Origin: Selaginella tamariscina
Lineage: Eukaryota; Streptophyta; Lycopodiopsida; Selaginellales; Selaginellaceae
Assembly (NCBI GenBank): GCA_003024785.1
Contig: PUQB01000317.1
Coordinates: 179,560-243,559 of the forward strand
Direction: 5' to 3'
DNA: 64,000 nucleotides
The translations under genes and the position numbers were made by a program. Shown in pieces: positions 8,484 through 12,308 of this stretch (positions are counted from its first letter, which is position 1; every line of letters begins with the position of its first letter). A model generated the notes under the pieces. The model saw only the letters and a list, made by a program, of their open reading frames with translations. It was not told the origin of the DNA and searched no databases.

Positions 8484-9485
8484 TTACATAAGAGTATGCA
8501 TAAGAGATGGGTGAATAATAAACGAACCAACAAAGAAAAAAGTGTTCATTTCACGATAAGAGACATATACAAGTAGTAACTTGCGAAAGTAAAGCTGTAT
8601 TGAGCTCAGTGCTGGCTCCCAAGCACAGTCGATGAGGAAAGCAGTGAAGAGTGCCGGGTCACCTTCCGTCTTGTCCATATCATCAGGTAACGAGCTACAG
8701 ACATCTCAGCCATTGTGTTCCTTGTCTGCTTGTCTGGCTCAGGGAGCTTCACCATGAAACCGATGTCTCTCCACAGCATCCATCCTGTTGCACCTGTTAA
8801 AGATCCAAATGTAGAGACATGTTGCTTACCAGCTAGAGCCCGGCTGCAGCGTCCGTTCCCGTCAAAGAAGGGGTGTATCTGGAGAAACTCGAACAAAAAC
8901 TGGCCACTGGCTTGAAACTTCCGCATCAACCGCTCTATGTCCATGTCCTCGCTCTCGTAGTAGAGCCACTACATACATACAGAATTATCTAATCGTATAT
9001 GTATACATGTATGTTAAGAGTTAACATACCTTGACTATCAACTCTCCCACTGAGGCATAAAGTCCATCACGTATTGTCTCCGGTGGGTTGAAGTAGAGCT
9101 CACGCTTGCCGTCCAAGGTAACAGTTTTGGCTGGTAAAACACGCCAATACAGAGGTTCGTCTCCGAGAGCAAGAGCACAAGCAGTAGCCAGATCGTCCAC
9201 CGTAAAGTTCCCGGCATCTAACTTGTCCAGTATTACAGCGGCAAGCTGATGAGGGACCGCACTCTTTCTTGCCTTGACAAGGTCCTCCAGCATTTGCGAT
9301 GTAGTGATCCCAACGTGCCATTCTGCTTCATGTCCTTCAACCCTCCACGGTGGCAACTCCGGCACTCCCATAAGAGATCGTGAATCTGGATGAGCTATGT
9401 TGAGGATGATGAGCACAAGCAATCCTGCTGTGAGACAGCGAATGATTCCACGTACATTGCCGTTTCCACGGGCTACACATCGCAC
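8484..9485 (-). CDS. Fic-domain protein with intact catalytic motif, membrane-anchored or secreted
   Basis: Fic enzymes transfer AMP or other nucleotide moieties to hydroxyl side chains; the metazoan member FICD sits in the ER membrane and modifies BiP. Exon 1 (9485 to about 9028) starts MRCVARGNGNVRG and then has a hydrophobic stretch (GLLVLIILNIA), a likely signal anchor near residues 15-35. Exon 2 (about 8970-8840) encodes WLYYESEDMDIERLMRKF, then QIHPFFDGNGRCSRALAG. This is a complete HxFx(D/E)GN(G/K)RxxR Fic motif with the catalytic histidine. Exon 3 begins at about 8805 after a small intron and carries the rest of the domain. Its C-terminal helix (TAFLIDCAW) is in another frame; the paralogue at 9837-10697 has TAFVIEKAW at the same place, so a one-base shift near 8674-8680 is likely. 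A clear inhibitory (S/T)xxxE(G/N) helix was not found. The start and N-terminus are tentative. Confidence 0.75.
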
Positions 9486-9836
9486 ATGAAAACAAGTTAA
9501 GGAACCGCAGGGAATGGAGATTTACCAGGAAGAGTCGCAAGAGATCCATCGCCCTGCGTTGCCGCTTCTCTCCTTCCTCGTCCTCCTCTCCGCGACATTC
9601 AAACTTCGTCCAAGGGCGCGCAGAATTCGCTTCTAAAAATAGCTTGTACATTTCAAATTCAGGCGGGAATCGCAATCGCCAACATCGCCTGTTCGAAACC
9701 CGTTTCCTTTCAAACAAGGTATAACATCGTGTTACCATCTGTTAACCCTAATAGCAGAGCCCCTGTTATAGGGTTTGTACAGAATTTTAGTATTTAAATT
9801 GCTCGAAACAATTTTGCCCTAGATAGGGTTTTTGGT
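9486..9836. promoter_or_regulatory. Shared divergent promoter of the Fic gene pair
   Basis: 351 bp separate the two predicted start codons. Near the plus-strand gene there are TTAACCCTAATAG and TAGGGTTT elements at about 9742-9832, similar to plant telo-boxes, and TATTTAAAT at about 9790. The minus-strand 5' part is GC-richer and could include a 5' UTR. Co-regulation of the two genes is an inference from the layout. Confidence 0.4.
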
Positions 9837-10697
9837 ATGAGACTTCTGGTGTCTCTGCTTTTGCTCTTGGGGTTGTATAGCGATTCCACTCTGCTGGAGA
9901 GGCCATGGTGGAGGTCGGGCAGCGAACCAACTACGTCACAAATGGTAAGGGAGATGCAAAATTTACACACAACAGGTAAAATAGCTAGTTTTCACCCATC
10001 ATGGCGACTCCTTCATTTTGTTGACACATCTGGAGAGCTCATTAAGCATACGAGAATACCACTCCATCCTGTCAGCGAGACAGAATTCATCAAGGGATGC
10101 ATTCCAAACGTTAACTTTCCCGAGGAGGACATGAATGAAGTCATGCAACTCTACGATGCCATGTCTTATGCCCGAGAACGTCTCTTGCTACCTGTTCCAT
10201 CCGTAAGCTTGGACGATCTCCTTCAGATTCAGCTCAAAGTTGTTGGCAATTCATCAACAACAGCAGGTAAGCTTCTTGGGTTCAATCACACACACACACA
10301 TACATATTGCATGACAGGGTACAGAGACAAGGAAGCGGAGGCTCAACTGATGGGCTACTTGGCCAAGCTGAATATGGAGATGGCAAGGATCCATAAGCTT
10401 CCAGTGAGAGACAGATTTCTGCCTGCCTGCGAGCTTACAGCGTGGTCCATATGGTCCATCCGGCGTCTTCAGCCCTTCTTGGATGGGAATGCACGAGTAT
10501 CTGAAGTCATCAACTCTGTTATTTTGGGAGGGAGTGGAGTCACACATTTCCCTTTTAGGATTTTCAATGTTTGGTCAGAAGCAGGGTATCATTATGCTCT
10601 AATATCCATGAAGCTAACTGCCAATGCCCCCACTCTCAAGGAACTCACCGCCTTTGTCATCGAGAAAGCCTGGTTAGCTTCCAAGTACGGGGGTTAA
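9837..10697 (+). CDS. Fic-like protein with degenerate active site (predicted pseudo-Fic)
   Basis: Paralogue of the minus-strand Fic gene. The N-terminus MRLLVSLLLLLGLYSDS is a clear signal peptide or anchor. The core has RRLQPFLDGNARVSEVI where an active protein has HxFx(D/E)GNGRxxR: the catalytic His is Gln, the second Gly is Ala and the last Arg is Glu. Both proteins share a TTSQM patch near the N-terminus and a TAF(V/L)I..AW C-terminal helix, which supports common ancestry. The frame is open throughout, but 10266-10316 has GTAAGC at its start, TGACAG at its end, is 51 nt long (a multiple of three) and encodes HTHTHT from a CA repeat. It is probably a frame-neutral mini-intron. The protein ends WLASKYGG. 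A non-catalytic partner or regulator of the divergent Fic protein is possible but not shown. Confidence 0.7.
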   Translation: MRLLVSLLLLLGLYSDSTLLERPWWRSGSEPTTSQMVREMQNLHTTGKIASFHPSWRLLHFVDTSGELIKHTRIPLHPVSETEFIKGCIPNVNFPEEDMNEVMQLYDAMSYARERLLLPVPSVSLDDLLQIQLKVVGNSSTTAGKLLGFNHTHTHTYCMTGYRDKEAEAQLMGYLAKLNMEMARIHKLPVRDRFLPACELTAWSIWSIRRLQPFLDGNARVSEVINSVILGGSGVTHFPFRIFNVWSEAGYHYALISMKLTANAPTLKELTAFVIEKAWLASKYGG

Positions 10698-10829: not shown

Positions 10830-12308
10830 CTATGCGGAGTCATCCAATGCAGCGACCCCAGGGAGCACTTTGCCTTCAAGAAGTTCCAAGCTGGCACCAC
10901 CCCCAGTTGATATGTGGCTCATTCTGTCTGCAACACCAGCCTTCTCCACAGCAGCCACTGAATCTCCACCACCTATGATTGTAGTCACGCCCTTGTCACT
11001 CAACTCCGCAAGCTTAAGTGCGATTGCCTGTAACAATCCACACATATGTTAATATGTGTTAATACGTGTGTTATGTACACTTACGTCTGTGCCAACAGCG
11101 AAGTTCTTAAACTCAAACACTCCCATTGGACCGTTCCAGATGATGGTCTTTGTGGTATCCAGTGCCTCCTCAAATGTCTTGATCGCATCAGGTCCGATAT
11201 CAAGTCCCATCCATCCCTCAGGGATGGCAGAAGCCGAGACAATCTGTAAGAAAACACATCAGTCTCTGTGTATGTGTGTACTGATATGTATGTATACCTT
11301 GCTAGATGCATCGGCTGCGAACTTGTCAGCAACTACGACATCAGTGGGCAAGAGAAGCTTAACACCCTTAGACTTGGCTTTCTCCATGAGCTCCGTGGCC
11401 AGCGAAAGCTTGTCATCCTCCACGAGAGAGGATCCGACAGACATGCCTTGTGCTTTAAGGAAAGTGAAGATCATTCCTCCTCCGAGAAGGAGAATGTCAC
11501 AGTTTTCCAACAGAGACTCAAGCACTCCAATCTTCGTCGACACCTTAGAGCCTCCAACATGGCTGCAAACGGCCTCTTTGGGCTCGAGACTGCTCCCACA
11601 AGGTAATCCAATTCCTACACAAGTAGGAAAGTTAGATATGTATGTTCACACACACACGCGCGCGCTAACACACACCTTCTGAAGAAGGAAACCTGCAACA
11701 GCAGGTTTGATGAACTTGGTGATGCCCTCAGTGGAGGCATGAGCCCTGTGGGCAGTTCCAAATGCATCGTTCACATACAGATCGGCAAGGCAGCCAATTT
11801 CTTGGCATGCTCCACGTCGTTCTTCTCCTCCTCTTTATAAACCTCAGGTTCTCAAGTAGCAACACACCACCCTCGGGTAGCTCTGCTATTTTCTTCTCTA
11901 CCTCGGGGCCGACTGAGTCCTCCGCTTGCTCAACCTGTATATATTCATATCAGTACTGTATATACAATATATAAATAATATTATACCTTCAAACGGAGAA
12001 GTTCTGAGAGCCTCGGTACAAGAGGTGCAAGGCAGCAGCTCTTTGTGTAGCCCTTAGGTCGTCCCTGTAAAGCACACAAAAGTTAGCCTTCCGTGTGTGT
12101 GTGCGTGGTATCTTACAAGGTGGCTGGCGAGGATGACTTTGGCACCGTATTTGACGAGATACTGAATCGTAGGGACAGCAGCGCGGAGACGTGTATCATC
12201 CGTGATCGCTTGATTGGCATCAAGCGGAACGTTGAGATCCGCTCTCACGAACACGCGCTTCCCCTTGAGATCGGCCTCCTTCAAATCCCCAACACTCCTC
12301 TTCGTCAT
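10830..12308 (-). CDS. PGK: Phosphoglycerate kinase, cytosolic type
   Basis: Catalyses 1,3-bisphosphoglycerate + ADP to 3-phosphoglycerate + ATP in glycolysis. It begins [20 protein letters not shown] without a transit peptide, hence a cytosolic call. Exons, in transcript order: 12308 to about 12118 (VRADLNVPL, the substrate-binding N-domain), 12062-11988 (GRPKGYTK...RLSELL), 11937 to about 11676 ([20 protein letters not shown]), 11615-11299 (PFAAM, then [16 protein letters not shown] and [10 protein letters not shown]), 11244-11085 ([22 protein letters not shown]), and 11030-10830 ([33 protein letters not shown], ending ALDDSA). All classical PGK blocks are present in order. Three single-base losses, near 11557, 11784 and 11841, shift frame inside very conserved blocks. 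Each is a shortened homopolymer and probably an assembly error. Introns are about 50-60 nt or slightly longer. Confidence 0.95.

Follow-up and report, generated by a model that had tools for sequence, protein, structure and literature searches.

A head-to-head pair of Fic and pseudo-Fic genes within an expanded Fic family of Selaginella tamariscina

Fic enzymes modify other proteins by adding small groups to them. In eukaryotes, most knowledge of their AMPylation activity comes from metazoan FICD (HYPE), a protein with an N-terminal hydrophobic anchor and an inhibitory motif, TVAIEGN. Fido-domain proteins are also annotated in the lycophyte Selaginella moellendorffii. Here we describe two divergent genes of Selaginella tamariscina, one on the minus strand encoding a Fic protein with a complete active-site motif (HPF-type) and one on the plus strand encoding a Fic-like protein without the catalytic His (pseudo-Fic). 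They occupy positions 8484 to 10697 of a 64,000-nucleotide stretch of contig PUQB01000317.1 (assembly GCA_003024785.1), hereafter the window. FICD tunes the endoplasmic reticulum chaperone BiP (PMC12974487). Passages on eukaryotic Fic proteins place them in metazoa and a few fungi according to earlier surveys (PMC2686095) or divide them into four separate groups (PMC4454073), and those passages name no land-plant Fic. A search of the open literature, with subscription journals and plant genome annotations outside its scope, found no paper on plant Fic enzymes or pseudo-Fic proteins, in agreement with the original prediction that no land-plant counterpart had been characterised.

Like FICD and Caenorhabditis elegans Fic-1, which are its best matches in both structure and sequence, the pseudo-Fic protein has a predicted Fic fold. 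A hydrophobic anchor or signal as in FICD is predicted for both window proteins. In contrast to FICD, the locus consists of two separate genes, neither product has a Glu-bearing counterpart of TVAIEGN, and no Pfam family besides Fic was matched at E <= 1, so no TPR repeats were found. Two bacterial arrangements are also comparable. VbhA and EcFicA, the antitoxins of VbhT and EcFicT, are small helix proteins, whereas the neighbour in the window is a Fic-fold paralogue without the canonical inhibitory motif.

Like the class I toxin-antitoxin systems VbhT/VbhA and EcFicT/EcFicA, as that class is defined in PMC5651007, the window has a Fic enzyme without an inhibitory motif of its own beside a second gene. 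The Fic1/Fic2 pair of Campylobacter fetus likewise consists of adjacent Fic paralogues, one of them motif-degenerate and one controlling the other (PMC5651007). However, in that pair the toxin is the degenerate Fic2, which keeps its His, and the canonical Fic1 serves as antitoxin by means of its inhibitory motif, whereas the degenerate member of the window has no His. AvrB, a bacterial effector with a Fido fold and no Fic motif, keeps a beta-hairpin (PMC4454073) that is missing from the motif-degenerate proteins described below.

The gene pair and its products

The features of the locus are as follows.
8484..8784, minus strand: exon 4 and 3' end of the HPF-type Fic gene, with a one-base shift near 8680 between ...VARYLM and ...GDPALFTAFLIDCAW
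8830..8968, minus strand: exon 3 of the HPF-type Fic gene, with the active-site motif HPFFDGNGRCSR and a match to Pfam PF02661
9030..9472, minus strand: exon 2 of the HPF-type Fic gene, beginning ARGNGNVRGIIRCLTAGLLVLIILNIA, with the predicted signal anchor, ELPPWR...TTSQM and the flap hairpin RELYFNPPETI, between GT-AG introns of 53 and 61 nt
9526..9598, minus strand: exon 1 of the HPF-type Fic gene, MSRRGGRGRREAATQGDGSLATLP, a basic N-terminal tail, assigned by its frame and a phase-1 splice into exon 2
9599..9836, no strand: intergenic region of 238 bp, a possible bidirectional promoter, with exact teloboxes at 9769-9776 and 9824-9831
9837..10266, plus strand: exon 1 of the pseudo-Fic gene, with a hydrophobic N terminus, PWWR...TTSQM and FVDTSG
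10267..10317, plus strand: predicted GT-AG intron of the pseudo-Fic gene, 51 nt, in frame, without counterpart in five motif-degenerate paralogues
10318..10697, plus strand: exon 2 of the pseudo-Fic gene, with QPFLDGNARVSE, TAFVIEKAW and the stop codon; PF02661 at E 7.2e-4 and a modelled Fic fold

Reading frame and splice phases place the start of the minus-strand gene at ATG 9598 and give four exons, separated by introns at 9525-9473 (53 nt), 9029-8969 (61 nt) and 8829-8785 (45 nt). A start near 9485, which had put the two genes 351 bp apart, was discarded: the codon there is a GTG inside a frame that continues via the phase-1 splice to ATG 9598, and 238 bp lie between the two ATGs. As first reported, the Fic motif HPFFDGNGRCSR is intact; it agrees with HPFx[DE]GN[GK]RxxR, including the catalytic His, as expected of an active Fic AMP-transferase. 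The open reading frame (ORF) at 8606-8944 matches PF02661 at E 7.2e-8, and the spliced protein up to the shift does so at E 1.1e-8 (36.2 bits, above the curated cut-off of 24).

The plus-strand gene (9837-10697) encodes 269 residues if its single 51-nt intron is spliced. That GT-AG intron (10267-10317), part of the original prediction, is in frame and stop-free and is likewise predicted here from sequence; the residues it would encode are unmatched in the five aligned motif-degenerate paralogues, and two rows of the family A described below have their flap at this place. All 269 spliced codons are open, as was true of none of 2000 first-order Markov sequences. The motif QPFLDGNARVSE has no catalytic His, as had been noted, and does not fit an active Fic AMP-transferase. 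The protein is akin to Fic in sequence and in predicted fold, although its Pfam match (E 7.2e-4, 20.8 bits) falls below the 24-bit curated cut-off. Its predicted structure contains the Fic helical core, with FICD and Fic-1 closest.

The earlier statement that both proteins begin with a hydrophobic segment holds for the plus-strand product, whose stretch is N-terminal (residues 4-20, mean Kyte-Doolittle 1.77) and is predicted to be a signal peptide. In the minus-strand product the stretch is internal, behind the basic tail (residues 34-50, mean 2.41), and is predicted to be a signal anchor; both assignments come from hydropathy and not from a dedicated predictor.

A pattern scan for the inhibitory [ST]xxxE[GN] found it in neither window protein. 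The pattern is strict, and family A proteins also miss its exact form at that place, with V for S/T; matches occur in 2 of 17 rows scanned, TLTREN in the degenerate C438 protein and SLVIEG close to the C-terminal end of C472. An inhibitory motif supplied in trans, as by the partner in class I toxin-antitoxin systems, was accordingly rejected for the plus-strand protein, which may inhibit by other modes. The telobox AAACCCTA occurs 11 times in the window (2.04 expected), and two of these copies lie in the 238 bp between the genes. With the short distance between the ATGs, these two motifs make a shared promoter possible.

The Fic family and its His-less branch

Searching all six frames of the genome (300.7 Mb in 1391 contigs) with Pfam returned 23 Fic matches, spread over 19 contigs. 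This count is a minimum, and it includes duplicate or allelic contigs, C760/C927 and C236/C1336 among them. Bacterial contamination was considered and rejected on this spread over 19 contigs and on the presence of GT-AG introns both in the Fic genes (45-61 nt) and in the adjacent phosphoglycerate kinase (PGK) gene (52-61 nt). A tree was made from 15 rows of this genome. Left outside it, as near copies, fragments or broken models, were C621, C870, C1359 (two places), C1060, C324, C521, C455, C927 and C1336, and also second places on C655, C1193 and C604 and the HPF-type neighbour at C236.

The tree contains three groups. Family A (C169, C655, C202, C760, C472 and C1193; support 85/93) has the canonical HPFxDGNGRxGR. 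Clade B (support 98/97) comprises the anchored HPF-type proteins, namely the minus-strand protein of the window and those of C438 and C604. The six motif-degenerate rows form the third group, with support of 88/92 without C438 and 54/0 with it. Like the window genes, family A has a Fic domain and, in five of its six rows (that of C472 begins beyond this point), a P.WR...TS.M-like N terminus, which is also present in the HPF-type proteins of C604 and C438. Unlike the window proteins, the family A rows examined have no strongly hydrophobic N-terminal stretch, most of them beginning near P.WR, and they keep an inhibitory-like K/NIE.EG.DT. In the alignment the HPF-type proteins of the window and C604 have the motif and the flap and lack this inhibitory-like segment (the C438 model is incomplete).

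The motif-degenerate group is present at seven loci, and at six of them the catalytic His is replaced by Arg or Gln. PF.DGN.R is kept in all five aligned His-less rows, and the flap is missing from the aligned motif-degenerate rows, with the window row taken as spliced. The C438 member has lost most of its motif (HTQAASNSRVAE, HTQAASNSR); an ungapped count and the tree alignment put a His at the catalytic place, and two other alignments put a three-residue gap there. C236 and C1336 are probable alleles of one His-less gene, with 96% of the codons compared identical and frame breaks at different points. Further His-less copies with many frame breaks occur on C704 (792-810 kb, three places) and C455 (142-143 kb).

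We compared the plus-strand gene codon by codon with its counterparts on C604, C441 and C236 (153, 187 and 175 aligned codons). Silent differences per site were saturated (0.78, 0.80 and 0.91, respectively), with nonsynonymous differences per site (dN) of 0.785, 0.798 and 0.743 and amino-acid identities of 33, 29 and 31%. Only 4 of 23 fourfold sites were identical between the window gene and C604. Because all the compared copies lack the His and amino acids are kept while silent sites are saturated, the simplest reading of these alignments is that the His was lost first and that the His-less protein was afterwards kept by selection. For closer pairs the ratio of dN to synonymous differences (dN/dS) was 0.56 (C604-C704), 0.54 (C604-C455) and 0.58 (C236-C1336). 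Family A pairs gave 0.46 and 0.53, and a short piece gave 0.17.

The frameshift and the neighbouring gene

In exon 4 of the HPF-type gene the frame changes near 8680, after ...MAEMSVARYLM and before ...GDPALFTAFLIDCAW; without a shift the frame stops at 8606. Because of this single base, the TAFLIDCAW helix and the HPFFDGNGR (Fic) exon are read in different frames. Among the elements said to be shared by the two proteins, TTSQM is in both, and the TAF(V/L)I..AW helix belongs, on the minus strand, to a different frame from the Fic exon. A 29-nt intron restoring the frame was drawn by eye and rejected, since the other introns are longer and it would delete VARYLM, whose counterpart VSQYLM is kept by the decayed C760 copy.

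The next gene along encodes PGK (10833-12308, minus strand) and has five introns of 52, 52, 61, 54 and 57 nt. It serves as a local gauge of indel errors in the assembly, with single bases missing at 11837, 11790 and 11559. Against the solved PGK 7zy7 it scores 603 bits, ungapped at these three sites and with two one-residue gaps elsewhere. With three one-base gaps in this gene next door, an assembly error is the simplest cause of the shift in the HPF-type gene and probably, if unproven, the right one; the alternative is gene decay.

Adjacent Fic genes and their possible meaning

Of the seven motif-degenerate loci (C635, which is the window, C438, C604, C236, C441, C704 and C455), four have an HPF-type gene no more than about 2 kb away; among strictly His-less loci the count is three of six. 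The pair is head to head in the window and at C438, where the HPF-type gene model is incomplete. At C604 HPF-type copies inverted relative to each other lie about 0.7 and 2.1 kb away, and at C236 the neighbour is tail to tail. For seven loci and 23 matches in 300.7 Mb, about 0.005 cases of proximity within 5 kb are expected by chance. This recurrent adjacency suggests, without proving, that the inactive neighbour has a job of its own. The C604 region (241000-250900) is palindrome-like, with near-identical inverted HPF-type copies flanking the His-less gene, and is either real or an assembly artefact.

Among further copies of the clade B type, the one on C521 (region 258500-266000) has no degenerate neighbour within the 7.5 kb examined; a copia-like reading frame, identified by eye, lies immediately upstream of it. 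The one on C760 is decayed and adjoins a family A gene.

We tentatively favour, from these comparisons, a membrane-anchored Fic transferase with a neighbouring non-catalytic paralogue that is kept by selection and perhaps regulates it, the locus being one head-to-head pair within the expanded family. The minus-strand product would span the membrane in type II orientation, with its Fic domain in the lumen, a complete HPFx[DE]GNGRxxR and a substrate-docking flap; its predicted reaction is the transfer of AMP, or of another nucleotide-linked group, to a target in the secretory pathway. Since the inhibitory segment is absent from the HPF-type proteins of the window and C604, these should be uninhibited unless something acts in trans, and the degenerate neighbour is the obvious candidate for that restraint. 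The plus-strand product would have the Fic fold and be secreted or luminal; it lacks both the catalytic His and the inhibitory Glu, and also the flap if the intron is spliced. Kept by selection, it would most likely be a partner of the anchored enzyme, as hetero-dimer, substrate adaptor or brake. The enzyme-regulator idea of the original prediction thus gains from the pairing at four of seven loci and the second head-to-head case at C438, and loses from the three unpaired loci, the varied orientation and the missing canonical inhibitory motif.

Several observations weigh against this reading. The minus-strand gene carries a frameshift in the assembly, and the pseudo-Fic protein of the window has no [ST]xxxE[GN], the canonical inhibitory motif. 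No HPF-type gene was found at C441, C704 and C455 in the 13, 9 and 9 kb examined, pair orientation varies between loci, and the neighbour at C236, which is outside the tree, has HPFMNGNGR, where Asn stands in place of Asp/Glu. For the C438 member, a His in register is retained, the tree position is unsure (54/0), Pfam gives no match and BLASTP matches it weakly to the window protein (23.1 bits, E 0.004). C704-C455 gave a dN/dS of 0.96, which looks like relaxed constraint at least in that comparison, and some copies decay. Finally, local duplication could produce neighbours without function, and it is a possible source of the adjacency because family matches also lie close together elsewhere, at distances of about 1 kb (C1193), 17 kb (C655) and 40 kb (C1359).

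This last point leads to a possible, if doubtful, alternative in which the pseudo-Fic protein stands alone with a binding role of its own, as scaffold or receptor for a nucleotide, peptide or microbial ligand, and adjacency is a relic of local duplication. The unpaired loci (three of seven), the varied orientation, the neighbouring Fic matches on C1193 and C655 and the conservation of PF.DGN.R in all five aligned His-less rows are in its favour. However, at C635, C438 and C604 the members of a pair fall into different, deeply divided groups and are not recent tandem copies, and chance proximity is as low as given above. That conserved PF.DGN.R, with the His replaced, would also suit a protein that remains enzymatic and, with Arg or Gln where the His was, carries out another transfer reaction, by analogy with AvrB, a Fido-fold rhamnosyltransferase (PMC10866546). 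We consider this very unlikely, as the flap is missing, the replacing residue varies between R and Q, and most of the motif is gone from C438.

Decay of both genes, as functionless products of a fast-duplicating family, would account for the frameshift in the minus-strand gene and for the decayed copies on C760, C704 and C455. It is an unlikely explanation, given a plus-strand frame intact over 269 codons and amino acids conserved despite saturated silent sites; the three one-base gaps in PGK make frameshifts poor evidence of decay here. A toxin-antitoxin-like or selfish pair, in which the free anchored Fic is harmful and its degenerate neighbour neutralises it, would account for the linkage, the copy number and the rapid divergence. 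It agrees with the linkage of genes at four loci, with the HPF-type proteins of the window and C604, which lack the inhibitory segment as class I Fic toxins lack the motif, and with the adjacent Fic-Fic toxin-antitoxin module of C. fetus (PMC5651007). Nevertheless we regard it as most improbable, for the window pseudo-Fic has no [ST]xxxE[GN], the C521 HPF-type copy is partnerless in the 7.5 kb examined, and unpaired His-less copies exist. A further reading, a eukaryotic two-gene Fic module in which an uninhibited, membrane-anchored transferase of the plant secretory pathway is neutralised or steered by a linked dead paralogue at several loci, possibly as toxin and antidote, seems to us rather unlikely. 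If true, it would amount to a plant enzyme/pseudo-enzyme system derived from a single fold.

A plant lineage rich in Fic genes, with an anchored subfamily lacking built-in inhibition and, alongside it, an old His-less branch apparently kept by selection, would make pseudo-enzyme regulation within the Fic fold directly testable. Such a family also raises the question of what Fic proteins do in plants.
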